Shown here: positions 14,938 to 29,991 of the stretch, one piece after another
Layout of the letters: every line of letters begins with the position of its first letter
Position numbering within the stretch: position 1 is the stretch's first letter
NCBI RefSeq assembly: GCF_003285545.1
Contig: NZ_QLNV01000002.1
Location: 124,001 to 188,000 of the forward strand
DNA length: 64,000 nucleotides
Direction of reading: 5' to 3'
Source: Sinomicrobium soli
GTDB lineage: Bacteria; Bacteroidota; Bacteroidia; Flavobacteriales; Flavobacteriaceae
Made by a program: the position numbers and the translations under genes
The notes under the pieces: generated by a model
Told to the model about the DNA's origin: nothing
The model's input: only the letters and a program-made list of their open reading frames with translations
Databases searched by the model: none

Positions 14938-15022
14938 TACATTACAGAAAACACAGGGTATTAAGTATAAAACAGAAAAGCTGATTTCTGAGTTAACAAA
15001 CAAGAAATTTCAGTAAAACACT

Positions 15023-15060
15023 AAGAGACTGTCTTCTAAAAAGGTAGTCTCTTTTTGTTT
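15023..15060 (+). terminator. Rho-independent terminator of the TonB-dependent receptor gene
   Basis: AAGAGACT (15023-15030) pairs with AGTCTCTT (15046-15053) and is followed by TTTTGTTTT. It lies about 85 bases after the receptor stop codon. Confidence 0.8.
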
Positions 15061-15146
15061 TAACCTTTTAATATTAAAACAACTTTTTATTAACCCTCAA
15101 TGAGAATATACTCCTGAAATTAGTTGCACTTAACCATAAAAAAATT

Positions 15147-15263
15147 ATGCAAAAAATTTATTATTCGGGGTGCCTACTCCTGCTAACCTTGTCTATAGGT
15201 TATTCTCATAAGATACCGGGAAAGCTTTTAAACTTTCGATCCAAAAAACATTTGAACAAATAA
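15147..15263 (+). CDS. Short ORF with signal-peptide-like N-terminus, possibly a remnant
   Basis: An ATG at 15147 opens 38 codons reading MQKIYYSGCLLLLTLSIGYS and then a short basic tail (KIPGKLLNFRSKKHLNK) before a stop at 15261-15263. The first 20 residues look like a secretion signal, but little follows. It ends 20 bases before the next lipoprotein gene. It could be a genuine small exported peptide, the 5-prime remnant of a secreted protein, or chance. Confidence 0.3.
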   Translation: MQKIYYSGCLLLLTLSIGYSHKIPGKLLNFRSKKHLNK

Positions 15264-15283
15264 AAAACAATAACTTCTATATC

Positions 15284-15808
15284 ATGAAAACAACATTCAC
15301 CATATACATCGGCATACTTCTTTTAAGTCTGGGCCTTACCGCCTGCTCCAACGACGACGATCACAATACCGGTATGCCCAAAACCCGGATTGGCAACGAC
15401 GCTGTCGTATTCAATTTTGAAAACCAGTCTTTCCGCGACAGCCTGGAGCTTCAGCTCACTTTTCCCGATTCCGTAAAAGAGATACCCGAAAACGGATTCT
15501 GGCTCTATCTTCCGTTCTACCAGACCTCCGGAAACCAAACATGGTACCCCATTCCCGGAGTACGTGAAGATCTGCAATACAAGGTATACCACCAGTTTTC
15601 CCCAATAGGCGAAACAACCCGGCAAACAAGCCTTCAAATAAAAGTTGAGGAAGACAAGAGCATGAAGCCCTACGGTAAGGAACTCAGTTATTCCAGACTG
15701 GAGATCATAGCCATAAACCCCGAAGCCATCCGCAACCTCACCCCGGAAGACCTCAATCTCAGGGATTACAATGAAGTAGTCAGGCATTTCGACCTCGATC
15801 AGAAATAA
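15284..15808 (+). CDS. Lipoprotein of unknown function
   Basis: The 174-residue protein has a lipoprotein signal with lipobox LTAC (Cys21) followed by an acidic SNDDDH tract, which suggests export to the outer face of the outer membrane. The remainder has no motif I recognise; it is rich in beta-type hydrophobic alternation (VVFNFENQSFRDSLELQLTF) with a proline- and tryptophan-containing middle (TWYPIPG). It follows the TonB-dependent receptor by 346 bases, with a terminator in between, so it is probably a separate unit. Its own terminator lies at 15855-15893. Confidence 0.7.
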   Translation: MKTTFTIYIGILLLSLGLTACSNDDDHNTGMPKTRIGNDAVVFNFENQSFRDSLELQLTFPDSVKEIPENGFWLYLPFYQTSGNQTWYPIPGVREDLQYKVYHQFSPIGETTRQTSLQIKVEEDKSMKPYGKELSYSRLEIIAINPEAIRNLTPEDLNLRDYNEVVRHFDLDQK

Positions 15809-15854
15809 AACCGTTGTGATAAGGGCAACACCATTGCCTCAACAGCTATATGAA

Positions 15855-15893
15855 ACCCCGTTCCGGCTTTACCGGAACGGGGTCGATTTTTTT
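15855..15893 (+). terminator. Strong Rho-independent terminator
   Basis: ACCCCGTTCCGG (15855-15866) pairs with CCGGAACGGGGT (15872-15883) in a 12-bp perfect stem, followed by CGATTTTTTT. It ends the lipoprotein transcript. Confidence 0.9.
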
Positions 15894-16054
15894 CATTATA
15901 TCTTGCATTCTTTAAATAATATGGACTATTTTTGCACAATGCATTTAATGCTTTGACCGGAAAAAGCAAAAGTCATTGCCGGAATCCCAACCTATTTCCA
16001 CCGGAAATGTGACGCTATTAACAAAATATTAGTACCACAAAACTTATTTTTTAA

Positions 16055-16062
16055 TAAATTTG
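16055..16062 (+). promoter_or_regulatory. -7 promoter element of the T9SS-signal protein gene
   Basis: TAAATTTG is an exact TAnnTTTG match 21 bases before the start codon at 16084. No clear -33 TTTG was seen at the usual distance. Confidence 0.5.
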
Positions 16063-16083
16063 TAGTATATGTAAGGTTGGCGG

Positions 16084-16458
16084 ATGAAAAAAATTTACCT
16101 ACTTATTCTGATGTTCGCATGCTTCTTTTCCGGGTACTCCCAGGAGAAAGTAGCTAAGAAACAGCGATATACCAATTACAGGGCGTTACTTACCAGGCCC
16201 GGGAAGGATACTATTCCCCAAAAAGACATAGAAGATCTCCGTTTATATCCCAACCCGGTAACCAAGGGCACCGTAGCCATACATTCCCGGAAAAATCTCC
16301 CCAAGGAAATTTCAATTTACGATGTATTGGGCAAGGAAGTACTGCGCACGAGGATCAACGGCAAGACCCTTAATGTCTCCGAACTCAATTCGGGGATCTA
16401 CATTATCAAGGTCACCGAGATCAACAATACCTCTACCAGGAAACTGGTCATCAAATAA
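16084..16458 (+). CDS. Small secreted protein consisting mainly of a type IX secretion C-terminal domain
   Basis: The 124-residue protein has a signal peptide (cleavage after about GYSQ, residue 20), a 30-residue basic linker, and then a complete type A sorting domain of the Por/type IX system: LYPNPVTKG, ISIYDVLGKEVLR, LNVSELNSGIYIIKV, RKLVIK. In the family this domain directs large cargo across the outer membrane and is cleaved off. Here there is almost no cargo. It may be a stand-alone surface-attached peptide, a competitor for the sortase, or the survivor of a larger gene. Confidence 0.85.
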   Translation: MKKIYLLILMFACFFSGYSQEKVAKKQRYTNYRALLTRPGKDTIPQKDIEDLRLYPNPVTKGTVAIHSRKNLPKEISIYDVLGKEVLRTRINGKTLNVSELNSGIYIIKVTEINNTSTRKLVIK

Positions 16459-16493
16459 ATATTTTCCCGTTTTCTCCACACCACCTATCCTTT

Positions 16494-16516
16494 CCGATAC
16501 AGGTATCGGGGCATTT
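16494..16516 (+). terminator. Weak terminator after the T9SS-signal protein gene
   Basis: CCGATAC (16494-16500) and GTATCGG (16503-16509) are inverted copies that give a short stem, followed after GGCA by TTTTTATT. Confidence 0.45.
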
Positions 16517-16686
16517 TTATTCCCTTTTATGAAAAAAGTACGCGTTATCTTCTCTTTCCTTTAGTTGGTAGTTCTTTGCAGTTCTTAATTACAGGTTGCA
16601 AACTCATAACTGCCTTTGACAGGAAAATGTACTAAAATGCATATGGGTATTTCGGAGCGACCGGTTCTTCGTCAAATTTGGGGGAG

Positions 16687-16830
16687 CTATACGGTTTGAG
16701 AGCGAATCACCTTTTTTCTTAGCAGCTCAAAGCTGGTTCGTCCATATGATTGACGTGACCTTCGGTAAAGCCTTTATAAGATTTTTCATCCAGGAATTTC
16801 AGAAAAAAACACTCCAGGTTAAAAAATACT
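16687..16830 (-). pseudogene. Remnant of an ISL3-family transposase C-terminus
   Basis: The minus strand encodes FLKFLDEKSYKGFTEGHVN in one frame (to 16749). The next frame gives SYGRTSFELLRKKVIRSQTV and a stop at 16687-16689. In intact ISL3-type transposases these two blocks are joined by a basic stretch of the kind RLKTIKR (EGHVNRLKTIKRxxYGRxxFxLLRxKV); here that linker is missing and the frame shifts. No other transposase part or terminal inverted repeat was found, so this is an old remnant. It marks the left edge of the accessory block that follows. Confidence 0.65.
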
Positions 16831-16977
16831 TCCTATAGGCCATACATTGACCGGGCTATATTTTACATCTTTATACCGCCCAAAGGATAAATCTCTTTAG
16901 ATGGTATTGCTCCCGGACAGGATACTTGTGTACGTTTTCCCGTTTTTGGTGTCCTTTTCCTCGTTAACCGTTGAACC

Positions 16978-17661
16978 ATGAATACCCAAAAAGATCACTA
17001 CAATATGGTACTTATAGGTGATAACCCACTGCTGACTTTGGGGCTCCGTAATTTGTTACTTCGCATAGGAAACAGAGAACATATGTCCTTTAATTTTATT
17101 GAAGTGGACACCATGGAGCAGGCACCACAGATACTCGAACATACATTTTCTTTACACACTATAGATTACATATTCGTATTCCTGCACCCTCCGCAGATCA
17201 CAAACAGCACCATAAAATACGGTACAAAACTCACCAGGTATATCCGTAAACACTCTCCGGAGACCAAGATCATTATAGCGACTACCTACAGTAATCCGTT
17301 TCATATTCGGGTCATATTAGAAGATATCGTACCGGAAGGGTTTCTGGTAGATGAAGATCTATCTCATGGTAAAGCCTTTATGGTACTTCGCCAAATTATT
17401 CTACACCCTCCTTATTTCAGTCCCGTCGTGACAAAGGTGATACATGAAGATCTAAGTCATCGCCATCACCTGGATAAATGGGACTATCATATTTTATACG
17501 AACTCTCGCAAGGGGCATCACTCTCCGACCTGGTACTTCTTCTCCCTATCGGCCGGTCCGCAATCGTTAAACGTAAAAGGAAACTGAAAGCCTATTTCGG
17601 CATCCAGGGAGAATCCGATCGCAGTCTGGTGCTTATGGCCCGTAAAAAAGGGCTGATTTAA
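16978..17661 (+). CDS. LuxR/NarL-type transcriptional regulator with degenerate receiver domain
   Basis: The 227-residue protein has an N-terminal receiver-like domain (VLIGDNPLLTLGLRNLL at residues 11-27) and a C-terminal LuxR-type helix-turn-helix region (about residues 165-227: YHILYELSQGASLSDLVLLLPIGRSAIVKRKRKLKAYFG, ending VLMARKKGLI). The strand where the phosphorylated aspartate should lie reads IFVFLHPP (about residues 65-72), so the acceptor is missing. It is probably not controlled by ordinary phosphotransfer. No kinase gene is adjacent. It precedes the MauE and DUF6520 genes on the same strand by 230 bases, and is a candidate regulator of them. Confidence 0.78.
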   Translation: MNTQKDHYNMVLIGDNPLLTLGLRNLLLRIGNREHMSFNFIEVDTMEQAPQILEHTFSLHTIDYIFVFLHPPQITNSTIKYGTKLTRYIRKHSPETKIIIATTYSNPFHIRVILEDIVPEGFLVDEDLSHGKAFMVLRQIILHPPYFSPVVTKVIHEDLSHRHHLDKWDYHILYELSQGASLSDLVLLLPIGRSAIVKRKRKLKAYFGIQGESDRSLVLMARKKGLI

Positions 17662-17796
17662 ATGCATTTATACGTATCTCACTCCCAAAATATCGAACAT
17701 CATGATGCCGTAATAATAGGTTTATTAACCCATATTGAAAGGTATTTCTTAAACCAAATCAGGACAAAAATCGAATTCTTACAAAACTTTCCCCTA

Positions 17797-17817
17797 TCGG
17801 GTACTACAAGTACCCGA
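17797..17817 (+). promoter_or_regulatory. Inverted repeat upstream of the MauE-like gene, possible operator
   Basis: TCGGGTACT (17797-17805) and AGTACCCGA (17809-17817) form a perfect 9-bp inverted repeat with a 3-base centre, and CGAGTACC follows. No T-run follows, so an operator is more likely than a terminator. It lies between the LuxR-type regulator and its downstream genes, about 75 bases before the MauE-like start. A near-consensus -7 box, TAATTTTA, lies at 17848-17855. Confidence 0.45.
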
Positions 17818-17891
17818 TCGAGTACCAATTTTAACATTTTCCCGTCCTAATTTTATCTCAACGAAAAAAGTCAAACCTTAAACTACCCGTT

Positions 17892-18365
17892 ATGAAACTG
17901 TGGACGATCAGTTATAAGAAAGTTTTGGTAGAGATGATCTGCCTGTTGTTTATCCTGCTGTTTGTGTATGCAGCGGTAAGTAAGCTGACAGATTATGGTA
18001 AGTTTAAGGCCCAGTTGGGGCAGTCTCCTATACTGACGGATTTTGCGGGTATTATTGCCGTTATGGTTCCTGCTATAGAAATAGCCATTGCCGTCTTACT
18101 GGTCTTTCCATCCATGCGACGTTTAGCCCTGTATACCAGCTATTATCTCATGACCCTGTTTACCGTATATATTATTGCGGTACTCAATTTCAGTAGCCAT
18201 GTGCCCTGCTCCTGCGGGGGTATCCTGGAAAAACTGGGATGGATCGAGCATATTGTCTTTAACCTCATTTTCGTAGGATTAGCTCTTACAGGCATCTACC
18301 TGGTTAATGATAAAAATATGGATTCCAAATTTTCCTTTAACTCCTTAACACCAAAACTGCGATGA
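17892..18365 (+). CDS. MauE/DoxX-family redox-associated membrane protein
   Basis: The 157-residue protein has four hydrophobic segments (about residues 12-30, 50-72, 78-100 and 119-137). The conserved YAAVSKLTD region and the VPCSCGG motif (Cys106 and Cys108) near the third/fourth segment match the MauE branch of the DoxX/MauE family. MauE is needed for disulfide formation in methylamine dehydrogenase; other members are assumed to act in periplasmic thiol redox. The stop codon overlaps the next start (ATGA), so the two are translationally coupled. With a four-cysteine peptide encoded just downstream, disulfide handling of that peptide is an attractive inference. Confidence 0.85.
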   Translation: MKLWTISYKKVLVEMICLLFILLFVYAAVSKLTDYGKFKAQLGQSPILTDFAGIIAVMVPAIEIAIAVLLVFPSMRRLALYTSYYLMTLFTVYIIAVLNFSSHVPCSCGGILEKLGWIEHIVFNLIFVGLALTGIYLVNDKNMDSKFSFNSLTPKLR

Positions 18366-19480
18366 TGACCAAGACACTATACCTGATACTCAGTGCTCCT
18401 ATAGGGAGTGTCCTCATTATAGCTACACTATTCCTGCTTGCCGACAACAAGCCGGACCGGTTACAACGGGATTACAGTGTAGGCAGAGCACTTATGGCCG
18501 ATGCCATAATCCAAGATACGGTATTGGATATACAGTACAATTCCTATTATATTGCCGGTACTACAGACGACAGGCTTTACCTGGGGAACGTGACCAGCTT
18601 TTTACACTTGTTAAGCATAGATACCACACTTACCGATACTACTCATATAAGTGTACGTATTAAAAATGGGGATGGACTGGTATTCCGCTCTCCTTCCTTT
18701 AAAATACAAGCCCCCTATGTCTACCTGACCGATGGAGTAATGCCCGGCCTGTTCCGGGGAAGGCTGGGGCAATGGGAAGTCCAAAAGTTTATGGTTGACA
18801 GCGCTTATTTTACCAAAATAGTACCTACCGGGCCCAAAAACTTTGTCATAAGGGCCATGCAGGCCAGTAGCCGGCAATACGTTTTGGGAACCTTACAGGA
18901 TGTTCCGCCGTACCTAAACCTCGCCTCACTGCTACAAAAGCAGGTAGACGGTGTCTTTGATGTAGACGGTAACCTGCTCTATAACCGGGAACGGGACCAG
19001 GTGGTGTATGTCTATTATTACCGTAACCAGTTCCTGGTGACCGACCCGGAGTTAAACTTGATTTACGAAGGTAAAACGATTGACACCTTTAGCCGGGTAC
19101 AACTCAACCCGGTGCATGTTTCTTCAGGAAAGACCCACATGCTGGCAGCTCCGCCGAAAATGGTGAATGGCAACAGCACAACAAAAGGAAATTTCCTGTT
19201 GGTAAACTCCAAGATCATGGGAAGGAATGATGATGAAGACCTTTATAGCCGCTCCTCGGTTATCGATGTGTATGGCCTGGAACAGGGCGCATACCGTTTT
19301 AGTTTTTACCTGCCGGGATATAACGGCAGGTCTGCCCGGGATTTCAGGATTGTGGGTAACAAGCTCATAGCCCAATACGAGCACCATATCGTTACCTATA
19401 CTTTAAATAAAAAATACTTCCCGCAAAGGGAACTGAACAATATTCATCCGGAGGAATCAGGAGATTCGCTGAACACCTGA
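18362..19480 (+). CDS. Membrane-anchored protein, probably a six-bladed propeller of BF3164 type
   Basis: The 372-residue protein starts with one hydrophobic helix (about residues 5-26) that serves as a signal anchor, then an extracytoplasmic domain. That domain has repeated strand patterns, for example YIAGTTDDRLYLGN, VFDVDGNLLYN, NQFLVTDPELNLIYEG, SVIDVYGLEQGAYRFSFYLPGY and FRIVGNKLIAQYEHHIVTYTL. These resemble the blades of TolB/BF3164-like propellers, but I cannot assign a family firmly. The start overlaps the MauE stop, and the DUF6520 peptide gene follows 39 bases later, so the three form one unit. Function unknown. Confidence 0.6.
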   Translation: MMTKTLYLILSAPIGSVLIIATLFLLADNKPDRLQRDYSVGRALMADAIIQDTVLDIQYNSYYIAGTTDDRLYLGNVTSFLHLLSIDTTLTDTTHISVRIKNGDGLVFRSPSFKIQAPYVYLTDGVMPGLFRGRLGQWEVQKFMVDSAYFTKIVPTGPKNFVIRAMQASSRQYVLGTLQDVPPYLNLASLLQKQVDGVFDVDGNLLYNRERDQVVYVYYYRNQFLVTDPELNLIYEGKTIDTFSRVQLNPVHVSSGKTHMLAAPPKMVNGNSTTKGNFLLVNSKIMGRNDDEDLYSRSSVIDVYGLEQGAYRFSFYLPGYNGRSARDFRIVGNKLIAQYEHHIVTYTLNKKYFPQRELNNIHPEESGDSLNT

Positions 19481-19519
19481 GAGAAAGTAGGCATAGTATT
19501 AACATAAAAATTAAACATT

Positions 19520-19798
19520 ATGAAAACAAAAAATTGGATGTTAAGCGTAGCCATGTTTGCTATCGCTATCGTTGGAGCGTTTGCGATTTCGTCAACAGCG
19601 CAAACAGATTACCAGTACATAAGTAATGTACTAACACCTCCTTGTCAGAATGTAAATGTACCATGTGACAGAGTTGAATCATTTCAGTGTCGAGTAGATA
19701 AAGGAGCTGAAGGAGTGAAAGATGTATGGGAAACTGGTTGTGCTCAAGCAGTATTTCATTCAACATCTGATATTCTTCCTGAAATTACTGAGCCTTAA
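19520..19798 (+). CDS. DUF6520-type small exported peptide with four cysteines
   Basis: The 92-residue peptide has a conserved-looking leader (MKTKNWMLSVAMFAIAIVGAFA) that can act as a signal peptide, with cleavage likely after TAQ near residue 28. The mature part carries four cysteines (Cys42, 49, 57 and 74) in a QNVNVPCDRVESFQC context and an acidic C-terminus. I recognise the pattern as the DUF6520 family of Bacteroidota, which has no known function. The gene is AT-rich, lies directly after the MauE and propeller genes, and is followed by a strong hairpin terminator. A secreted disulfide-containing effector or signal is one possibility. Confidence 0.75.
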   Translation: MKTKNWMLSVAMFAIAIVGAFAISSTAQTDYQYISNVLTPPCQNVNVPCDRVESFQCRVDKGAEGVKDVWETGCAQAVFHSTSDILPEITEP

Positions 19799-19828
19799 TA
19801 CATTCTGAATCAAAATTAGGTTTACTTC

Positions 19829-19862
19829 AGAAAGGAGCCTAAAACGAAAAAGGCTCCTTTCT
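19829..19862. terminator. Bidirectional terminator between convergent genes
   Basis: AGAAAGGAGCCT (19829-19840) pairs with AGGCTCCTTTCT (19851-19862) in a 12-bp stem. An A-rich run follows on the right and a T-rich stretch lies on the left, so it can serve both the DUF6520 gene and the convergent amidohydrolase operon. Confidence 0.75.
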
Positions 19863-19875
19863 CCATAAAAAAAAA

Positions 19876-22800
19876 TTATAGCTCATCTCCCTCTTTATTT
19901 CCTTCATTCCATGGCCAAGGCTTAAGCTTCTTATAGGATGGCCAAATACGTGTCATGGTCTCTCCTTCATAAATATACCCATTACTTATGATATATTGAA
20001 TGTCTGCCGTATTATGAATATCCTCTAAAGGATCATTTTTTAAAATAACCATATCTGCTAATTTACCCGGCTCAATAGAGCCGAGATCTTTCTCCAGCCC
20101 CAATTTTTCCGCACCTCGTAAGGTGGCACAGTATAATGCTTCAAATTCCGACATCTTCCCTTCGGTAAAAGCCCAAAGTTCCATATGTGTGGATAATCCA
20201 GCGGGTAGCGATCCATGCCCGCCAACACTTACTTTCCCTCCCTTTCTTACAATATCTGTTAATATGTTACTCGAAATATCGATATTATCCTTATATTTTT
20301 GCTGCCCAAAAGCGCTTGCAGTAGCATCTTCCCATAAAAATTTTGGATTAAAAGCCAATATTTTTTTATTATATTCCTTATGCTTTTTGGCATAGAAAAT
20401 ACCATCCTTATGTGCCGTATGCACTATACATATCGTTGGTGTATAATGAACCTTACTTTTTGCAATAAAAGATATGATATCATCATAAATAGCTCCCTTA
20501 AATACTTCGTGTTCAATTCCTGTATAACCGTCTACGACCCTTGTTAAAGCATCATATATGGTAGTGGTCTCCAAACCGGAACCATAATGCGAGGTAATAC
20601 CTAAACCATTCTCCTTGGCTGCTCTCCGTAACCATTGCCGTTGATTTCTATGCTTTTGTAAGTATTCTTTAACAAGACTGGGGTGGTACTTCCTCTTTTC
20701 CTTTATCAATCGCTCTGCATCTTGTAGAGAAGATATTTTAAGAAAATCAGGCAGGACTTGGAGCCCTAAAATAGGAGCTCCGGAGGAATAGATTCTTGGT
20801 CCTAATGTTAAGCCTATTTTGACCATTTCCGAATAGCCAAAGACCTCTAAATCGCTAATAGAAGGATCATAAAAGGTGGTTACCCCCCAGGCGAGATTAC
20901 CAATTAAGTCCCGGTTTTGACTTTGCCAAAGTTCTACACCACTTCTGAGGTAATGGGCATGTGTATCGATCAATCCCGGAATGGCTGTTTTTCCTTCAAG
21001 ATCAAATACTTTCGAATCCTTCGGAATATGTATTTTATTAGTTTTTCCTACTCCTATAATGCGATTATTTTCTACCAGAATAGTTCCATCTTCTATTATT
21101 TTTCCTTTTTTCTTCATCGTCAGGATTCTCACATGCGTTAAAGCATAAGACCCTTGGGGCATATCTATGGGTGCCCGAATATCAATATCTGCCAGTAGTG
21201 TTGCATTTTTTTTTGGATGCTCTATTGACTTCATATATATCTTATTCGTATTGGCACAAAGAAGTGTGTGCTCATCCATCCAGTTGACATGAGTCCCATT
21301 CATGGAAGTTAAGGCATACGGATTCATCTCCTCCCAGCTTTTCATTGTACCATCCTCTGGAATATCAGCTATATAAATCCGGTCATTTCTTATAATGGCT
21401 ATATGCTTTCCTCCAGGGGATGCCAATAGTTCATCAGCATAAGGAACTTCTATTAAAGGTTTTATGTCTGTCCTTTCCAGATTGGCTGTGAATAAAATGG
21501 CTCCATTCCCTTTTAAACCAAGCGTAAAAGCCGCAGTGGATGAATAAACCTGATTACCCTCAGTTGAAAAAGTAATTGAAGGAAAAAATCTGCCATGTGT
21601 ATTATTTATAGGTTGTACCCTTATTATTTCTTGAAAAGAAGGTTTTTTTTCAAAAGCAGGCATCCACATTAACCATAAATCCAAATTTTTAACTCCTTTC
21701 TCTTTAATGTATTTGTCAAATGATGTATTATTAAAATAAAATGCCAGTTTATCGCCTTGGGGAGACCAAGTTAAATTTGTATATTTTCCCTTGTGGTTTG
21801 TTAGTTGTTTCGGAGTGCCACCATGTGAAGGTATCAACATAATATTGCCATTTCCAAAATCATCACATGCTACATACGCAACCCATTGGCCATCCGGAGA
21901 AATGGCAGGACTATATTCCAGGCTATTGCTATCGGTTAATCTCCTGCTTACTTTTGTATCCGTATTTGTGATATATACTTTACCAAAGGCACTATATGCT
22001 AATATCGATTTCTCTTTATTATAGGTGGGCCAGCGTATAATCCGGGATCGAATACTTGCTGTATCCGCAATCCGTTCCGTTTTTTTTGGTCTTAGCCGGC
22101 GACGTATGGTCTTCCGTACCGGAACTTTTACCGGTATTACAGATTGTTGCCCGGTTTGTATATTAATCTTTAATAATTTCCCTTTATAACCTAACACAAT
22201 ATATTTACTATCTCCTGTAAATCCATACCCAGAATGCAGATCACGCGAAATAGAATCCAGGAGGTTACGTGTTGTTTTTTCCTTTATATCAAGAACTTTA
22301 AGGGCAAAATCTCCGTTTTCCAAACGTTGCAAAAACGCCATGTATTTACCGGAAAGATCTACTATTAAATCTTTTATGAAGCCAGATTCAGCTTGATCTT
22401 GCCAAACTGTCGAAACTTCAAGAGCACTATCGGTAGAGATATTATAACCAAAAATAGTATGACCATCACTAAAATATATAGTACCGTTTTGAGATATTAT
22501 ACCTCCTCTATACATCATAGGGTCATATTTAGAGGGCATGTATAAACTTGTATTATCAGCCCTTCCTTCTGTTAACTTAGACCACTGCCCATGCTCATAC
22601 TCCAGCAAATATCCTTCAGCACTCCATAATACCCGGATATCTCGCCAGGTTTTAGGCATAGCACTTTTTTGTTTTTGCAAGTGCAAGCCATCGCTATGAA
22701 CAGTCCATAAACCGATAGAACCATCCCGGTCACTTAAAAAAGCAATCTGTGTACCATCCGGAGAATACTTAGCCTTGACATTCCAGGAGCCATCTCCCCC

Positions 22801-23034
22801 CAGTAATAATTTAGCTGTGCCTCCTTCTACTGGAACCGTATATAAATCACCCAATACATCAAATAATATCGTCTTTCCATCCGGAGAGATATCCACATTG
22901 GGATAGCTCATTTCGGTAGTGTCAAAACCAATCTTTACAAAGTCTTCCCCAATTTCGTTAGACATAAATACCTTACAGCTACTCCAAAGCAGTAGCATAC
23001 TTAGTCCTACAAGAAAATTTACTCTGAGTCTCAT
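19876..23034 (-). CDS. Lipoprotein with N-terminal TolB-like propeller and C-terminal amidohydrolase domain
   Basis: The 1052-residue protein has a lipoprotein signal (lipobox LLLWSSC, Cys20). Propeller repeats with the PDG signature (ISPDGKTILFD, YSPDGTQIAFLSD, ISPDGQWVAYVA, WSPQGDKLAFYF) fill about residues 40-580. A metal-dependent amidohydrolase follows, with HxH in LIDTHAHY (His692, His694), a candidate carboxylated lysine in SLVKEY (Lys789), His816 (TSHYG), His842 (IEHEV), and GGHGSLPAGLSTHMELW in the place of the usual catalytic aspartate region, as in other propeller-fused members. It ends with GSIEPGKLADMVIL. Such fusions are taken to be periplasmic peptidases or cyclic-amide hydrolases; the substrate is unknown. 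It is the last gene of the susC-susD operon and is strikingly AT-rich. Confidence 0.88.
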   Translation of the reverse strand: MRLRVNFLVGLSMLLLWSSCKVFMSNEIGEDFVKIGFDTTEMSYPNVDISPDGKTILFDVLGDLYTVPVEGGTAKLLLGGDGSWNVKAKYSPDGTQIAFLSDRDGSIGLWTVHSDGLHLQKQKSAMPKTWRDIRVLWSAEGYLLEYEHGQWSKLTEGRADNTSLYMPSKYDPMMYRGGIISQNGTIYFSDGHTIFGYNISTDSALEVSTVWQDQAESGFIKDLIVDLSGKYMAFLQRLENGDFALKVLDIKEKTTRNLLDSISRDLHSGYGFTGDSKYIVLGYKGKLLKINIQTGQQSVIPVKVPVRKTIRRRLRPKKTERIADTASIRSRIIRWPTYNKEKSILAYSAFGKVYITNTDTKVSRRLTDSNSLEYSPAISPDGQWVAYVACDDFGNGNIMLIPSHGGTPKQLTNHKGKYTNLTWSPQGDKLAFYFNNTSFDKYIKEKGVKNLDLWLMWMPAFEKKPSFQEIIRVQPINNTHGRFFPSITFSTEGNQVYSSTAAFTLGLKGNGAILFTANLERTDIKPLIEVPYADELLASPGGKHIAIIRNDRIYIADIPEDGTMKSWEEMNPYALTSMNGTHVNWMDEHTLLCANTNKIYMKSIEHPKKNATLLADIDIRAPIDMPQGSYALTHVRILTMKKKGKIIEDGTILVENNRIIGVGKTNKIHIPKDSKVFDLEGKTAIPGLIDTHAHYLRSGVELWQSQNRDLIGNLAWGVTTFYDPSISDLEVFGYSEMVKIGLTLGPRIYSSGAPILGLQVLPDFLKISSLQDAERLIKEKRKYHPSLVKEYLQKHRNQRQWLRRAAKENGLGITSHYGSGLETTTIYDALTRVVDGYTGIEHEVFKGAIYDDIISFIAKSKVHYTPTICIVHTAHKDGIFYAKKHKEYNKKILAFNPKFLWEDATASAFGQQKYKDNIDISSNILTDIVRKGGKVSVGGHGSLPAGLSTHMELWAFTEGKMSEFEALYCATLRGAEKLGLEKDLGSIEPGKLADMVILKNDPLEDIHNTADIQYIISNGYIYEGETMTRIWPSYKKLKPWPWNEGNKEGDEL

Positions 23035-23047
23035 ACAATGCTTTCAA

Positions 23048-24478
23048 TTAGTAGGCGTACCCATCCGTGGGTTCCAAATTCGGGTTGTTCAAATATTCAT
23101 GTTGTGGTATGGGAAACATGGCCTGGTAGGATTGCCAATTGGGTTTTTCTTCGGATAATACGGCATCTATATTCCCGGTCCGTTTTATATCCAACCAGCG
23201 ATGTCCCCATTCGGCAAAAAGTTCCTTTTTCCTTTCCTCCCATATTGCGGCTAAAAGCTCTTCCCGGTCAATACCAGGATGGGTATCGGCTATCAACGGC
23301 AGGTCTGCCCGCTCCTTAATGGCATCGAGGTCTGTTATGGCATTCGTCAGATTACTTTGCATGGCCCGTGCCTCTGCCCGGATCAGGTATTGTTCGGCTA
23401 ACCGGAATACTACGGAGTATTCGGAAAGGTTACTATCCAGCTTGACTTTATATTTGTAAGGGTAATAATAGGTGTCGGATATGCCTTCTACTTCTCCTAT
23501 CCAATGTGTTTTTCGCAGGTCCGGCTCTTCCAAAGACGCCATAAAAGAATCCGTTAAGCTGGTGGAGAATTGGCTATTGGGCACTTGTTCTAAGATAAGA
23601 TAATACCCTTCCCAGGTATTATAGCGGGAGTCTACCGGTAATAAATGCCAGATGGTTTCCGTGCTTTCCTTAAGGAACACCTGGTCCAGATCCGGGAGGA
23701 GGGTATATAACGGATCGTTAATGACCATTGTCGCATAACGCTCCGCCTGTTCCCAGTTTTCCATAAATAAATACACCCTGGCCAGCATAGCCCGTACCGT
23801 ACCTTTATTGACCCGGGTACGTAAATCTCCGTGATAGTCATTGTCCAGGAGTGTTTCACTATCGGTTAGATCTGCAACAATCTGTTTATAAATCTCAGAA
23901 GGATCGCTTTGGGGCATTACCGCATTGGACTGGTACTCCGTAGCTGTAATTAAGGGAACTCTTCCATATAAATTAACCAGGTAGAAATAACTAAAGGCCC
24001 GTATAAATTTGGCTTCGCCTTGTAACTGCTTCCTGACCGTTTCAGATAAAGACGATGAACTTTCAATGCCTTCAAGAATAGCGTTAACTTCATAAATCCG
24101 TTGGTAAAGAGAACTCCATAGCGAAAGGATCGTAGCATTATCAGAAGTTATCACATTTTCATAAAACGGATTGGTATTAAAGCTTTTTAATATATCTGCT
24201 GTCGCTGCACATAGTATTGTTATACTGTTTGTTCTCCCACTGGAGAACCCGGAATACTGTAAATTGTGATATACCGCGTCTATAGCGGACAGGGCTACGT
24301 CATCACTGGTAAAGACCATTTCCTGGACTATTTCCGAATCCGGTGGATCTATTTGTACAAAATCTTTACAGGAGACCAGCATGGATACGATGAGTATTAC
24401 CAGTATAATGGTCCGGAACCGGTTTTGGTATGGAACCTTAGTCAACATCTTAACGATGGTATTATATATATTTTTCAT
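23048..24478 (-). CDS. RagB/SusD-family nutrient-binding outer membrane lipoprotein
   Basis: The protein is 476 residues from the ATG at 24476-24478, with lipobox VSMLVSC (Cys37). An in-frame ATG at 24451 is an alternative start. Frames upstream of 24478 only overlap the SusC end. The body has SusD features: FIRAFSYFYLVNLYGRVPLI, the helical TPR-like region VRAMLARVYLFMENWEQAERYA, and the C-terminal WEERKKELFAEWGHRWLDIKRTG that typifies the family. SusD caps the SusC barrel and binds substrate at the cell surface. The gene starts 12 bases after susC ends and stops 13 bases before the amidohydrolase begins, so the three form one operon. Confidence 0.93.
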   Translation of the reverse strand: MKNIYNTIVKMLTKVPYQNRFRTIILVILIVSMLVSCKDFVQIDPPDSEIVQEMVFTSDDVALSAIDAVYHNLQYSGFSSGRTNSITILCAATADILKSFNTNPFYENVITSDNATILSLWSSLYQRIYEVNAILEGIESSSSLSETVRKQLQGEAKFIRAFSYFYLVNLYGRVPLITATEYQSNAVMPQSDPSEIYKQIVADLTDSETLLDNDYHGDLRTRVNKGTVRAMLARVYLFMENWEQAERYATMVINDPLYTLLPDLDQVFLKESTETIWHLLPVDSRYNTWEGYYLILEQVPNSQFSTSLTDSFMASLEEPDLRKTHWIGEVEGISDTYYYPYKYKVKLDSNLSEYSVVFRLAEQYLIRAEARAMQSNLTNAITDLDAIKERADLPLIADTHPGIDREELLAAIWEERKKELFAEWGHRWLDIKRTGNIDAVLSEEKPNWQSYQAMFPIPQHEYLNNPNLEPTDGYAY

Positions 24479-24489
24479 AACTATTCCGA

Positions 24490-27400
24490 TTAAAATTGAA
24501 GATGTACACTGGCAGTTACCATACGTAAAGCAGGCAAGGTCGTACGAGAACCCGGAGATTGCGGGTCCAGACCAAAGTAGTTGGTCCAGGTCCAAAGGTT
24601 TTGTGCCTGTATGGATACTCCCAACTGATTCAGGTTTAACTTTTCTAATAGTTGTCCCTGAAAATTATATGCCAGGGAAATATTCTTCAGCCGGATAAAC
24701 GAAGCATCCACTACATTCAAAGTACTTTCACGAGCCAAATTATATGGAGTTAGATTAGACGCAGCCTGGCTATATTTTTGCACATTTGTTAAATCTCCAC
24801 TTTTTTGCCATCTCTTTATAAATTCTATGGGCACATTTCCTCCAATGTCATATACTGGGGTAAAACCTGGAAAATAATTTCCTAATTCTCCAAGCCCTTT
24901 TTGTTTGACAAATTCCAACAGAAAATCCACCCTAAATCCTTTATAATTGAAGGTGTTCTGAAATCCACCATAATAGTTTCGATCCATAGTTATAATAGCT
25001 ACACGGTCATCTATGGTATATCTTCCATCCTCATTAATATCCACCACCTCATACAAACCGGTTTCAGGATTAACCTCTTGAAATTGGTATAGTTTGCGGA
25101 TGTTTAAGGATTTCCCTATTTCGTATGTGCTTGCATAAGGTGTGACTTCAATATTAGGATAATCCACCAATTTATTTTTTGGAATGGTCAAGTTTACATT
25201 GGTCGTCCATGCCACATCCTGAGACCGGATATTGGTTGTGGTTAACTGAAATTCCCAACCCGTGTTTTGTACGGTTGCGGGTAGATTGGCCTGTACACTA
25301 TTAAACCCGGTAATATAGGGTAAGCGGTAGCCTACCAACTGGTTGGAAGAGCGGTTGCGGTACCAGTTTACAGATAACAGGATGCGGTCCTTTATAAAGC
25401 CCAGGTCTAAAGCCCCTTCAAGTTTTTTATTGGTTTCCCAGCTATAATCCGAGTTTGCCAGCCGGGTAGGATATAACCCACCATTTCCTCGGAAATTGAG
25501 AGGTTGCGTTATAGCACTATAAGTAGATAAAAACCCATAATCCCCTATCCCGTCATTACCGGTAGTACCATAGCTTCCCCGGATCTTCCCAAAACTTAAA
25601 AAAGGAATCGTATTTTTAATTAAAATTTCCTCGGAAAATATCCACGCTGCTCCTACGGCCCCGAAATTGGCAAATTGCTTGCCTGGTCCAAAACGGGATG
25701 ATCCGTCCCTACGCCCGGTAAGGTTAATAAAATAACGCTTTTTATAATTATACCCTATTCGACCATATATGGCATTGTATTTATATTCGTTTTGAAAATC
25801 TCTTAAAATGGAAGATTCTAAAGCGGCATTAATATTGTTTAATAGAACTTCACTACTATACCCGTAAGCATCTATTCCAAAGACAACATTTAGTCTCCGT
25901 TGCCAGGTAGCGCCTATGAGAAAGTCAAAGTTTGAATTCTTAATACTTTTAGAGTAATTGAGTTGTGGCTCTATAATCCAGGAATTTCCTTCCTGGTTAA
26001 GCCGACGATGGCTGTAGTCTCTATAGGGTCTCAGCTCTGGTTTATAAGAATCTTTGGTAGTCAATATGGTTTCGTGCTGTTTAAAATCTGTGTACCCTGC
26101 GCTTACCTTTAGCTGTAGGTCCTTTAACAGTTCGTAAGACAAAACCGAATTAACGATAAGATTGTTACTTAATACCTCTTGGGTATTCAGCATGGGCGCC
26201 AGGGGATTCAGAAAGGTAGTAATCCCCTCGTCGTTGACTTCCCAGTTCAGGTTTCCTTCGTTATCATACAAGCCCGGTGCATTAGGGGCCAGTTTTAAAG
26301 CGTTTTCCACCAGGTTATTATTAAAGAGGTTGTTTTTATCTTTACCATACGTAATGGATAGTTCGGCACGTAACCTTTGGTTCTCCGACCTATGCGAAAG
26401 GTTTAAACTCCCCATGATCTTACGATACCCGAAGTCTCCCGGAAATACGGTGTTCTCTTTGCGTACTCCACCACCAAAACGAAATGACGTTTGCTGGTTA
26501 CCCCCGGATACAAAACCCTGGATATCGGTAATGCTTGCCGCACCGCCAAAGAGTTTTTCCTGCCAGTCGGTGTACCGGTTCTGGTCCCATAGTAACAGGT
26601 CGGGATCTATATTTTTTACAGGCTCCGCCCCGTCGTTGGCCAGGGCTTCGTAGCGCATCTCCAAATACTGCTCTGTGTTGAGCAATTTCATTTTATTGGA
26701 GGCTTCTCCTATACCCGTCTGTACATTGATGTCTATTTGGGTTCTGCCGGCCTTTCCTTTCTTTGTGGTTATCAGCACCACCCCGTTAGCCCCACGGCTA
26801 CCGTAAATGGCTGTGGCATCGGCATCTTTTAATATTTCTATACTCTGTATATTGTTGGGATTAATAGTATTCAGGGGATCGACACCTATTTCATACGGAA
26901 ATATGCTGCTATAAGAGTCCAATCGTTCTGAAGACACCGGAACCCCATCAACAATATACAGCGGGTTATTCCCGGCTGCAATACTGTTCCTACCCCGTAT
27001 CTGGATGTTAAACCCACCTCCCGGTATCCCGGTAGTTTGCCGGATATCCACACCCGTCATTCTACCTTGCAGAGCCGCAAGAGGGTTATTTACCGGTTGC
27101 TTTTCGATATCCTCGGCAGTGACGCGCACTATACTCCCCGTCCTCTCTCTTTCCTTTACGGAGTAGTACCCTGCGTTTACCACCACTTCATCCAGGGAGG
27201 CGACATCCTCTGCCATTTGTACATTCAAAACCTCAAGCCCATTTACAGAAACCTCTATTTTCTTAAATCCTACATACGAAAACACAAGAATGTCCGCAGA
27301 GCTGACACGTAAACTAAATGCTCCATCTGTATCAGACATAGTGCCACTTTTCGTTCCCTTTATAATGATATTAACCCCTGGAAGCGGCAAGCCGCTCTCA

Positions 27401-27543
27401 TCGATAACTGTTCCTGTCACTAAGTATTGTTTATTTATTTGCAAAGGCAGCGATGCCCTAATTGGCACTGGTAGGTTAAGTAAAATCAAGGCAATAGTTA
27501 TGGAGCACCAGCAGGACAGGCCTGCTAATGTTGCGTGTTTCAT
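24490..27543 (-). CDS. SusC/RagA-family TonB-linked outer membrane protein
   Basis: The 1017-residue protein has an N-terminal hydrophobic signal, then a carboxypeptidase-like domain (VTGTVIDESGLPLPGVNII), a TonB-box-like ASLDEVVVNAGY, a plug domain (VNNPLAALQGRMTGV, ATAIYGSRGANGVVLITTKKG) and a beta-barrel ending RMVTASVHLQF with a terminal phenylalanine. It forms the TonB-driven outer-membrane channel with the SusD encoded next. No carbohydrate-active enzyme is encoded nearby; the third operon gene is an amidohydrolase, so peptides or modified peptides are more likely cargo than glycans. That is inference. Confidence 0.94.
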   Translation of the reverse strand: MKHATLAGLSCWCSITIALILLNLPVPIRASLPLQINKQYLVTGTVIDESGLPLPGVNIIIKGTKSGTMSDTDGAFSLRVSSADILVFSYVGFKKIEVSVNGLEVLNVQMAEDVASLDEVVVNAGYYSVKERERTGSIVRVTAEDIEKQPVNNPLAALQGRMTGVDIRQTTGIPGGGFNIQIRGRNSIAAGNNPLYIVDGVPVSSERLDSYSSIFPYEIGVDPLNTINPNNIQSIEILKDADATAIYGSRGANGVVLITTKKGKAGRTQIDINVQTGIGEASNKMKLLNTEQYLEMRYEALANDGAEPVKNIDPDLLLWDQNRYTDWQEKLFGGAASITDIQGFVSGGNQQTSFRFGGGVRKENTVFPGDFGYRKIMGSLNLSHRSENQRLRAELSITYGKDKNNLFNNNLVENALKLAPNAPGLYDNEGNLNWEVNDEGITTFLNPLAPMLNTQEVLSNNLIVNSVLSYELLKDLQLKVSAGYTDFKQHETILTTKDSYKPELRPYRDYSHRRLNQEGNSWIIEPQLNYSKSIKNSNFDFLIGATWQRRLNVVFGIDAYGYSSEVLLNNINAALESSILRDFQNEYKYNAIYGRIGYNYKKRYFINLTGRRDGSSRFGPGKQFANFGAVGAAWIFSEEILIKNTIPFLSFGKIRGSYGTTGNDGIGDYGFLSTYSAITQPLNFRGNGGLYPTRLANSDYSWETNKKLEGALDLGFIKDRILLSVNWYRNRSSNQLVGYRLPYITGFNSVQANLPATVQNTGWEFQLTTTNIRSQDVAWTTNVNLTIPKNKLVDYPNIEVTPYASTYEIGKSLNIRKLYQFQEVNPETGLYEVVDINEDGRYTIDDRVAIITMDRNYYGGFQNTFNYKGFRVDFLLEFVKQKGLGELGNYFPGFTPVYDIGGNVPIEFIKRWQKSGDLTNVQKYSQAASNLTPYNLARESTLNVVDASFIRLKNISLAYNFQGQLLEKLNLNQLGVSIQAQNLWTWTNYFGLDPQSPGSRTTLPALRMVTASVHLQF

Positions 27544-27978
27544 AATTTAAATGTTTTGAGTGTTAGTATATAAAGTGGCTATACCTCAGGTTGCGCAAAT
27601 CCTGGTATAGCATGTTATTAAACGAAGGTCTGTTTGGGTTTTGGTTGTTACTTTTCCTTATGCGTCGTTCTCACCTGAACAAAGAAACTTTTACAGAAAA
27701 TCCTATATCCCGCCTGAACAAAATTTTAAAATATGGAATACAATCAAAGCCGGTTGTATCCCGTAGCAAAAAAGAATCGCCGATCAATAGTGCCAGGGAG
27801 ATACTGTTTAAGAGCAGTTTATACCGGGTTTTTAGGTTTTTTCCTAAAGAGTAGATCGAATGTAGAGACCAAGTAGTTGAACATTATGGTAACAGTATTT
27901 TTGGTTGGTATTTTCATAATACACGGGTATTAATACGTGTTATGGTTATTGGCTAAGAAGAGTACTAAAAACACCACC

Positions 27979-28178
27979 AAAAAAGTGGGCGTGGAACTCA
28001 ACTTATTGTATCAGAGGTACTGGCATACCCGCACACAGATAAGAGAGCCCACGCCCGGGTCGTGAGCCTTCGACTTATCCTCTTGTGTGCTTGAAAAGTG
28101 CCAGTTTTCTGATACAAGATTCAAAGCGAATAGCTTCTAATATTTTGCTCCATTTAGAAGTTTCGCAATTTATGCAAT
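27979..28178 (-). ncRNA. ssrS: Structured small RNA of about 200 nt, candidate 6S RNA (6S-Flavo type)
   Basis: Nested arms form one long interrupted hairpin: TTGTATCAGA (28006-28015) with TCTGATACAA (28108-28117), ACTGGCA with TGCCAGT, GCACACA (28031-28037) with TGTGTGC (28084-28090), and GATAAG (28038-28043) with CTTATC (28074-28079). On the minus strand a near-consensus promoter starts it at about 28178. The 3-prime end is CCACGCCCAC followed by six T (27979-27984). That end can pair with GGGCGTGG in the top of the long hairpin (complement of 28049-28056), giving a terminator or an alternative fold. Length, rod-like shape and a terminator suit a 6S RNA, which binds RNA polymerase. The family name rests on shape and partial memory; a long attenuating leader of susC is the alternative. 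Confidence 0.5.
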
Positions 28179-28184
28179 AAGGAC

Positions 28185-28215
28185 CAAATATAGCAAAATA
28201 ATTTTTTAATACAAA
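28185..28215 (-). promoter_or_regulatory. Consensus Bacteroidota promoter of the small RNA
   Basis: The minus strand reads TTTG (28212-28215), exactly 19 bases, then TATATTTG (28185-28192), matching both consensus boxes. It faces the structured RNA and lies upstream of and divergent to the XRE gene. Confidence 0.75.
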
Positions 28216-28257
28216 TATGTATCGAATAAATATATCATTTTTCTCAAATTTTACTGT

Positions 28258-28620
28258 ATGAGAAGATACAGTGAGGCAGAATTGGACCTGTTAAATGTGC
28301 AGATAGGATGTGTTTTAAAGCTGGCCAGGTTGAAAGAGGACCTGTCACAGTTTGTACTTGCTGAAAGATTGGATTCCAACCCTACAATGATAGGGAGAGT
28401 GGAAAGATATGAACACGCCAGTCCGTGGGACAAGATATATTTGATAAGCCAGGAATTGAATATTGAGTTTTGTGACTTATTCGTCCTAAAGAGCAAAGAA
28501 GAGTTATTATCGATTGTCAAGGATAGTTTTAATCTCGAAAAGAAATTGACAAAAGAAAAGGAACGGTATTATAAATCCCTGGAGCAGGTTATCATAAGAA
28601 AATACGAAGCCCTTGAATGA
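28258..28620 (+). CDS. XRE-family helix-turn-helix regulator
   Basis: The 120-residue protein has an N-terminal helix-turn-helix of the Cro/CI type (LKLARLKEDLSQFVLAERLDSNPTMIGRVERYEHAS, about residues 21-56) and a C-terminal basic, coiled-coil-like helix (EKKLTKEKERYYKSLEQVIIRKYEALE). It is short enough to be a simple repressor or activator without a ligand domain. It is divergent from the small-RNA promoter and from the susC operon, so it could regulate either. Its targets are not evident. Confidence 0.78.
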   Translation: MRRYSEAELDLLNVQIGCVLKLARLKEDLSQFVLAERLDSNPTMIGRVERYEHASPWDKIYLISQELNIEFCDLFVLKSKEELLSIVKDSFNLEKKLTKEKERYYKSLEQVIIRKYEALE

Positions 28621-28928
28621 AAATAACCCGACTGCGGCCCTTCTGAGCACAGCGGAAACAAGTATGCCGGAACGATCGCATCCCTTATCAGCTGTAAAAC
28701 CGACTGGTTTCTGTTAGAGACCGACCGGTTTCTATGAGTATATGTGGTGAGAAGGTTCGTTAAGCAATAACACGCAGAACTTATTGGCGCCATCAGGAAT
28801 TATCCGGCTTATCCTGACGGAGACTTACCAAATAAAAAAGTAAATTTTAACCACATAACCAACCTTCTTTTTTAGAATAAGATTTTATTTTATATATTGT
28901 AGTAATTTTCTTTAAAAACTACAACTCA
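28621..28928. other. Intergenic region with paired direct repeat
   Basis: This 308-base stretch contains two 14-bp near-identical repeats 21 bp apart (28699-28733) and, near its right end, TAATTTTC (28913-28920), a 7-of-8 -7 box for the zinc-ribbon gene. No gene was recognised; small frames here have no protein-like features. Confidence 0.5.
28699..28733 (+). promoter_or_regulatory. Two direct repeats with 21-bp period, possible operator
   Basis: ACCGACTGGTTTCT (28699-28712) and ACCGACCGGTTTCT (28720-28733) differ at one base and are spaced exactly two helical turns apart; each is itself partly palindromic (ACCGNCYGGT). They lie between the XRE gene and the zinc-ribbon gene. Confidence 0.35.
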
Positions 28929-29279
28929 ATGCCGGCAAGAAAATGTCTTGAATGCGGACAGCCTGTTTCCGGGCGTATGGACAAGAAGTTCTGCGGAGAC
29001 TATTGCAGGAACTCCTATAACAACAGGCTCAACAGGGACAGCAGGAACCTCATGAGAAGTATTAACAATAAACTGAGAAAAAATTACCGTATACTGGCAG
29101 CATTAAACCCGCAGGACAAGACGAGGACCACCAAGCTCAGGTTGCTGGAAAGAGGGTTTGATTTCGGGTATTTTACACATACCTACACCACCAGGAACGG
29201 TAAAACCTATTACTTCCTGTACGACCTGGGATACCTGCCCCTCGGGAACGACCTTTACATGCTGGTAAAACAATTATAA
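28929..29279 (+). CDS. Small zinc-ribbon protein of unknown function
   Basis: The 116-residue protein begins with a zinc ribbon (CLECGQPV at residues 5-12, then KKFCGDYCRNSYNNR), the pattern of DUF2116-like zinc-ribbon proteins, where the second pair is followed by RNSYNN. The middle is basic and helical (RSINNKLRKNYRILAALNP) and the end is rich in aromatic residues (YTTRNGKTYYFLYDLGYLPL). Such proteins are widespread in Bacteroidota without known function; nucleic acid binding is plausible. The gene converges with the CBS gene, with only 2 bases between the stops. Confidence 0.7.
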   Translation: MPARKCLECGQPVSGRMDKKFCGDYCRNSYNNRLNRDSRNLMRSINNKLRKNYRILAALNPQDKTRTTKLRLLERGFDFGYFTHTYTTRNGKTYYFLYDLGYLPLGNDLYMLVKQL

Positions 29280-29281
29280 GA

Positions 29282-29746
29282 TCATCTCCAGTTATGCCCG
29301 CTGATACGCAGCGCTGCCAGCATCACGTCTTTCCGGCTGATCTGCCCGATAAGATACCCGTTTTCCACCACGGGAAACCGACGGTGCCTGGTCCGGTAAA
29401 ACTGTGAAGCCGCATCAAAAATATTGGCATCCGCAGCGATGGTCATGACATCCGTAGACATATATTTGCCCACTGTCATGTCGCATATCGGCATATTGAA
29501 ATAGCGCCCCTCGGATATCTGCTTCATGCAATCACTGTCGGAAATGATTCCTATAAGCTTTCCCCTGTCATCCACAATCGGGGCACCGGTAATCCTGTTC
29601 TTCATAAAACCCTCCATTACCTCCAGTAATGTCTGTTCCGGTGAAAAAGTCACCAGTTTCCTCGTCATGTGATCCGCCACATTGATGGAATGGAAATAAT
29701 CTCTCTTTATTTCCTCCCTTGCTCCTTGAAAACTTTTAATTGCCAT
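29282..29746 (-). CDS. CBS-domain protein
   Basis: The 154-residue protein consists of two CBS motifs after a short N-terminal extension: DHMTRKLVTFSPEQTLLEVMEGFMKNRITGAPIVDDRGKLIGIISDSD (about residues 25-72) and KYMSTDVMTIAADANIFDAASQFYRTRHRRFPVVENGYLIGQISRKDV (about 93-141). Paired CBS motifs form a Bateman module that binds adenine nucleotides such as AMP or ATP and usually regulates a partner. There is no enzyme domain attached and no obvious partner gene adjacent. Cytosolic. Confidence 0.9.
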   Translation of the reverse strand: MAIKSFQGAREEIKRDYFHSINVADHMTRKLVTFSPEQTLLEVMEGFMKNRITGAPIVDDRGKLIGIISDSDCMKQISEGRYFNMPICDMTVGKYMSTDVMTIAADANIFDAASQFYRTRHRRFPVVENGYLIGQISRKDVMLAALRISGHNWR

Positions 29747-29991
29747 GGTCGTTTAGTTTATCGGGTTAAACAATAAATATAACAATTTTTAATTAATTAT
29801 ACTAATAAATAAACATAATAAATCATAAAAAAATAACATATTATTACAATAATCAGGTTATATCCCTAAGAAAAGAGACAGTGTCATCCCAACCACAGTG
29901 CCGGTCCCGGCTCCGTGCTTCACACCTCCAACTCCACATAATAATTCGTATTTTGTAACCTGAAATCACTAATCTCTAAAGGGCTACATCC

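Follow-up and report, generated by a model that had tools for sequence, protein, structure and literature searches.

A DUF6520 cysteine peptide, a MauE-propeller pair and a convergent SusCD operon form a recurrent gene arrangement in Bacteroidota

A plus-strand unit encoding a small cysteine peptide of DUF6520, a Pfam family of unknown function, faces a minus-strand SusC-SusD operon at positions 16978-27543 of a 64,000-nucleotide stretch of the Sinomicrobium soli genome (contig NZ_QLNV01000002.1, positions 124,001 to 188,000; hereafter the window). This arrangement recurs far beyond the expectation from SusC density. SusCD importers, the nutrient gates that typify Bacteroidota, are commonly interpreted as scavengers of glycans or peptides. 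We read the present locus, at roughly even odds, as a recurrent dedicated Bacteroidota locus in which an endogenous exported peptide is coupled to one SusCD lineage and to MauE-propeller handling, with the peptide serving as a periplasmic partner. This reading builds on gene linkage, MauE-propeller fusions, invariant cysteines, and a distinct SusD lineage. The genes of the locus are as follows.

16978-17661, plus strand: response-regulator-like protein (LuxR/RcsB-type), orphan; PF00072 below cut-off
17892-18365, plus strand: MauE-family membrane protein with a CSCGG motif; PF07291
18362-19480, plus strand: membrane-anchored beta-propeller, as predicted by AlphaFold model and Foldseek; overlaps the MauE gene by 4 nt
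19520-19798, plus strand: DUF6520 peptide with Cys42, Cys49, Cys57, and Cys74; PF20130; begins 39 nt past the propeller gene
19876-23034, minus strand: lipoprotein with a TolB-like propeller and an amidohydrolase part; PF07676, PF01979
23048-24478, minus strand: SusD-family lipoprotein; PF14322, PF07980
24490-27543, minus strand: SusC-family TonB-dependent transporter; TIGR04056, 736.6 bits

The first-pass annotation of this DNA had described a plus-strand peptide unit opposite a minus-strand operon of SusC, SusD, and a propeller-amidohydrolase, and this layout was confirmed at these coordinates. The convergent gap between the peptide and amidohydrolase genes is 77 nt. The likely ATG start of SusD is at 24478, the listed open reading frame (ORF) beginning too early and extending to 24595. 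SusC (TIGR04056) and SusD (both Pfam families) scored above the cut-offs and their genes are adjacent, identifying the pair as a SusCD importer. No carbohydrate enzyme family was detected with Pfam or NCBIfam among the 11 genes scanned (15284-29279), in agreement with the annotation's argument against a glycan locus; a glycan or polysaccharide utilization locus was rejected on this basis.

Recurrence of the convergent arrangement

DUF6520 was present in 55 of the 397 genomes of the family sample, at 85 places above the cut-off. The census comprised 91 peptides, namely 80 of these 85 places, minus two larger proteins without a peptide core (G737 and G742), plus 13 peptides from the relatives and class samples, three of which (G002 twice and G003) were chosen for having no propeller nearby. 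Five places were left out: four in G005, which lie beside propellers, and one in G496 located at the end of a contig; the peptides of L210 and L211, the other peptides of G002 and G003, and G028 were likewise uncounted. Peptides were evaluated for SusCD where at least 7 kb lay downstream (87) and for MauE where at least 3 kb lay upstream (90). SusC-SusD lay opposite DUF6520 in 81 of the 87, with all six failures in a single genome (G652), and MauE was found near 79 of the 90; the family sample alone gave 68/74 and 68/77, respectively. The expectation that DUF6520 genes would mostly have MauE and SusCD as neighbors therefore held. As parts of the unit, MauE and the propeller, the latter found near 42 of the 91 peptides, were frequent without being universal.

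A second survey was centered on the propeller and comprised 87 genes: the best 80 of 172 relatives from a scan of genome contigs, two extra copies in the same stretches, and five S. soli genes. The relatives belonged to Flavobacterium and its kin, Cytophagales, Chitinophaga, and Pedobacter. SusC-SusD lay opposite 71 of the 87 propeller genes, and in three more only SusD was reached before the end of the stretch; of the 13 genes with neither, seven are no more than 3 kb from the end of the stretch and six are farther from it. MauE adjoined or was fused to the propeller in 82 of 87 cases (47 fused, 35 separate) and was not found in five. A signal-bearing small ORF occurred within 700 nt downstream of 80 of the 87. 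These ORFs were selected without regard to cysteine; after residue 22, 73 carried exactly four cysteines, five carried six, and two carried three, the last two being a doubtful ORF in L056 and an ORF cut by a contig end.

The S. soli genome itself contains seven DUF6520 matches, seven MauE matches, and five propeller genes, and all seven DUF6520 matches face SusC-SusD. Five loci are complete, with regulator, MauE, propeller, DUF6520, and opposite SusC-SusD. The other four complete loci, outside the window, each carry an M16 peptidase as the hydrolase and a FecR gene ahead of SusC; an ECF sigma gene was found in two of them. At L024, DUF6520 lies opposite SusC-SusD with a thioredoxin-like gene and without MauE or propeller; at L025, it lies opposite SusC-SusD and an M16 gene at a contig end.

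An ordinary oligopeptide-scavenging SusCD locus, with the peptide unit as an unrelated chance neighbor, would fit both the abundance of SusC (at least 56 genes in this genome, the window's own excluded) and the operon hydrolases, which suit peptide scavenging. We consider this explanation highly improbable, as the same convergent layout is found across many genera and seven times within a single genome, and the peptide unit was absent from all 20 control SusCD stretches: profile searches of these 10 kb stretches of the S. soli genome detected no MauE, propeller, or peptide. In a quick SusD tree, 19 of the 20 control SusDs stood apart from the 81 DUF6520-linked SusDs, with 2 label changes versus 18.4 after shuffling. 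The twentieth, the S. soli SusD of L290 (C5:36001-46000), grouped on a long branch with five of the DUF6520-linked SusDs. The SusCD pair of L290 is flanked on both sides by amidohydrolase-like genes, and no DUF6520 is present there.

The peptide and the MauE-propeller pair

The window peptide matched PF20130 at 30.7 bits (cut-off 25.4). Propeller-linked peptides were aligned after adding two S. soli peptides outside the 80-ORF list and removing near-copies, the ORF cut by a contig end, and the doubtful ORF. Among the resulting 64 peptides, 59 matched DUF6520 at E <= 0.01, and the sole invariant columns were exactly the four cysteines singled out by the first-pass annotation (Cys42, 49, 57, and 74), from whose conservation a disulfide-bonded peptide is predicted. 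The four-cysteine pattern was invariant in this aligned set but did not extend to the whole family; 46 of the 91 census peptides carry only two cysteines. Mean column entropy was 1.89 in the leader and 3.09 in the non-cysteine columns of the core. The structure model of the peptide was weak (pLDDT 72), and a PHROGs search with the peptide gave no match. Up to 14 DUF6520 matches occur in one genome. At L210 (8701-12854), one MauE-propeller pair is surrounded by four different DUF6520 peptides, and additional copies elsewhere are in some cases tandem and in others orphan.

Cysteine number was associated with the propeller. More than two cysteines were present in 40 of 42 census peptides with a propeller (37 with exactly four) versus 5 of 49 without (Fisher p 8e-18), and four of the latter five are G652 orphans. 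Restricted to the family sample, the counts were 36/37 and 5/41. On the SusD tree, the propeller/four-cysteine state changed about four times (three one way, one the opposite; p 0.6), and on the supported branches of the MauE tree, as few as one change was needed. Because the trees allow few independent changes, this link is suggestive only.

MauE of the window, assigned to thiol redox work by its family, matched PF07291 at 114 bits (cut-off 27, E 5.9e-33) and had no match in the PDB; the motif C.CGG was present in all 84 MauE domains of the propeller-centered set. The propeller protein matched no Pfam or NCBIfam family, and its sequence had no relative in the PDB. Its AlphaFold model (pLDDT 92) consists of an N-terminal, presumably membrane-spanning, helix followed by strands, and the Foldseek matches of this model were beta-propellers of a generic kind (TM about 0.4-0.5).

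Hydrolases and a proposed periplasmic role

The amidohydrolase protein, a lipoprotein by its lipobox (judged by eye), scored 92 bits against NF051886, far under the cut-off of 500. The best PDB matches of its amidohydrolase part included 2qs8, 3mtw, and 3feq, with modest scores. An Xaa-Pro dipeptidase and an arginine carboxypeptidase are the nearest of its solved relatives to carry a name, and the enzyme could therefore act on peptides. The amidohydrolase itself occurred in 2 of the 91 census rows, and 13 rows had none of the five hydrolase types. The commonest gene type between propeller and SusD accounted for 45 of 89 listed, with 44 S9 prolyl oligopeptidases and one met-zincin, and ten further or overlapping examples of the slot held M16, met-zincin, thioredoxin-like, S8, or M1 genes. 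Thus, a hydrolase of peptide type belongs to the conserved unit, as annotated, but the family is interchangeable; the hydrolase is swappable and usually a peptidase. These peptidase neighbors are suggestive of a RagAB-type oligopeptide importer.

The presence of MauE in most loci, of a thioredoxin-like (TlpA) gene inside the SusCD unit in 15 of the 91 census rows, and of peptidases in many would be consistent with a thiol relay in which MauE and the peptide reduce the disulfide bonds of peptides imported by SusCD and thereby make them cleavable for the peptidase. The peptides themselves make such a relay unlikely: in the aligned four-cysteine peptides, the cysteine spacing includes no CxxC and varies (5-13, 6-9, and 14-27 residues), and the remaining core shows little of the conservation of a redox carrier.

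Covariation was analyzed with partial correlations and 1000 permutations in 35 loci having a MauE-propeller fusion and an S9 peptidase, in which the median identities were 0.24 for the peptide, 0.33 for S9, 0.38 for the propeller, 0.49 for SusD, 0.55 for SusC, and 0.58 for MauE. The peptide distance correlated best with that of the propeller (partial r 0.48; 0/1000 permutations as high), followed by SusC (0.26; 0/1000) and the S9 peptidase (0.21; 3/1000). The strongest value suggests contact with the propeller and ranks the periplasmic partner role over capture of the peptide by SusD, although covariation is weak evidence because linked genes share history. The S9 value would also fit a peptide that inhibits the neighboring peptidase in the periplasm or serves as its propeptide, and a small cysteine peptide is found beside peptidases of several families. 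We nevertheless judge this role improbable, given that hydrolase types replace one another, or are absent as far as the five types go, while SusCD mostly stays, and that the peptide is retained in loci having only a thioredoxin-like gene.

As a periplasmic partner, the peptide would be directed across the inner membrane by a signal sequence. In the membrane beside the propeller, MauE may oxidize or proof-read one or two cysteine pairs of the peptide, and the propeller would bind it. Once folded, the peptide, probably located in the periplasm, could partner SusC, the peptidase, or both, and so gate or tune the uptake and breakdown of oligopeptides from outside. The regulator would switch the peptide unit, and in some relatives the SusCD unit may be under the control of FecR and ECF sigma genes.

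Several observations weigh against this role. Six propeller genes (L057, L062, L072, L084, L090, and L107) lack a convergent SusCD despite about 9 kb or more downstream, and 11 of the 90 evaluable DUF6520 peptides lack MauE. In G652, which carries 11 DUF6520 matches, the peptides of L231, L232, L234, and L235 are orphans: neither SusCD nor MauE nor a propeller was detected in their vicinity. The control SusCs came from one genome, from the top of the matches listed (at least 56), and some branches of the SusD tree are long. The partial r of the peptide distance was -0.25 for SusD and -0.09 for MauE, and the peptide model matched no solved fold in the PDB.

Alternatively, the peptide might leave the cell and be recaptured by its SusCD as a signal or as a metal or nutrient carrier, with the peptidase destroying or maturing it; we hold this to be possible but rather doubtful. 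The conserved leader and fast core resemble those of secreted ligands, yet signal sequences are compositionally restricted anyway. SusCD is also more constant than the hydrolase, the extra tandem or orphan copies would suit such a ligand, and Bacteroidota MNIO peptide clusters frequently co-occur with SusCD (PMC12636315). For export past the periplasm, however, no exporter was noticed by eye in the ORF lists of the S. soli loci (no systematic search was made), and no type IX tail family was among the matches of the 64 peptides. As to uptake, covariation with SusD was not positive after allowing for the other proteins; the peptide diverges in step with the propeller and SusC but not with SusD, a mild argument against its being cargo under the SusD lid.

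Tentatively, the periplasmic partner role could be extended to a phylum-wide system: the peptide's second pair of cysteines would have evolved with the MauE-fused propeller, a machine dedicated to folding it, and the whole SusCD lineage would depend on the peptide as a working part or self-ligand. The near-constant pairing of this SusCD lineage with the cell's own cysteine peptide and a possible MauE-propeller folder suggests an endogenous partner or ligand for some SusCD systems, and gives DUF6520 and a propeller family without a model a concrete setting.

Regulation, related systems, and the surrounding DNA

The first gene of the peptide unit is response-regulator-like and in place, but its annotation as LuxR-type is weak, because the PF00072 (Response_reg) match (E 0.0052) falls under the Pfam cut-off and RcsB matched only at E 0.004-0.005. 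The protein is 42% identical to its positional counterpart in L023. Among the 91 census rows, the regulator was of AraC type in 58 and LuxR type in 8, with neither found in 25; FecR occurred in 19 of 88 loci and ECF sigma in 14 of 88. Two intergenic elements were identified.

17796-17818: perfect 10-bp inverted repeat between the regulator and MauE genes (gap 17662-17891); candidate operator or hairpin
19829-19862: perfect 12-bp hairpin with a loop of 10 and A/T tracts on both sides (inverted repeat 19814-19840/19851-19877); candidate two-way terminator

Even when up to 3 mismatches were allowed, the first repeat had no second site in the genome. A shared regulator palindrome was rejected, as the repeat was not found in the equivalent gap of the S. 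soli cassettes L020-L023. The hairpin was missed by the terminator scan, whose loop limit was 8. The consensus of the Bacteroidetes-type promoter motif matched the window 3 times, against a chance expectation of 1.9; one match lies about 640 nt upstream of SusC, and the peptide unit has none. Sigma-70-type promoters showed no excess over shuffled sequence, and an Rfam search gave no match.

Some SusCD pairs, such as RagAB and BT2263-2264, import oligopeptides (PMC10132118). The window shares SusC and SusD with them, together with a peptidase-type hydrolase and no carbohydrate enzyme among the scanned genes. To our knowledge, the RagAB and BT2263-2264 loci include neither an endogenous cysteine peptide nor MauE nor an anchored propeller.

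Methylamine dehydrogenase has a propeller subunit and a disulfide-rich subunit. The window resembles the MauE/MauD system in placing a MauE-family protein beside a small exported cysteine protein and a beta-propeller, and differs in having no MauD or enzyme subunit among the scanned genes. The peptide family has no invariant Trp, and so no tryptophan-quinone cofactor is expected; a methylamine-dehydrogenase-like quinone enzyme was rejected for this reason and because neither MauA nor MauD was among the scanned genes. MauE has also been noted in candidate Streptomyces peptide clusters, where disulfide formation is its speculated role (PMC7794033).

NVEALA (PF14055) loci likewise encode small cysteine peptides that are exported and share a conserved leader; next to them lie lipoprotein-like proteins of about 350 aa (by eye), presumably propellers. 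However, profiles detected no MauE, SusCD, or DUF6520 in five NVEALA stretches, and kinship was rejected given these other neighbors and 0 PF14055 matches in the S. soli genome. The NVEALA stretches L204-L208, from other Bacteroidia, have repeated small cysteine peptides and, by eye, a signal-peptidase-like protein.

MNIO clusters (ChrH/DybH type) encode secreted or lipidated peptides, and one of those co-occurring with SusCD has a prolyl oligopeptidase (PMC12636315); the window differs in having no MNIO enzyme among the scanned genes. In the literature searched, which covered few subscription journals, we found no SusCD lineage paired with an endogenous cysteine peptide and no paper on DUF6520, NVEALA, or "redox-associated membrane protein". 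The known pieces are MauE and oligopeptide SusCDs, and the nearest published parallel found is the MNIO-SusCD co-occurrence (PMC12636315).

The locus lies in an AT-rich part of the window (14000-30000; GC 0.41 versus 0.50 in the remainder), which may have been imported from elsewhere. Among the other S. soli cassettes, the GC content of L020 and L021 is clearly under that of the flanks and that of L023 slightly so, while that of L022 is not. Upstream of the regulator, positions 16084-16458 encode a short protein of 124 aa; a type IX secretion sorting tail (PF18962) makes up its second half, and it contains little more.

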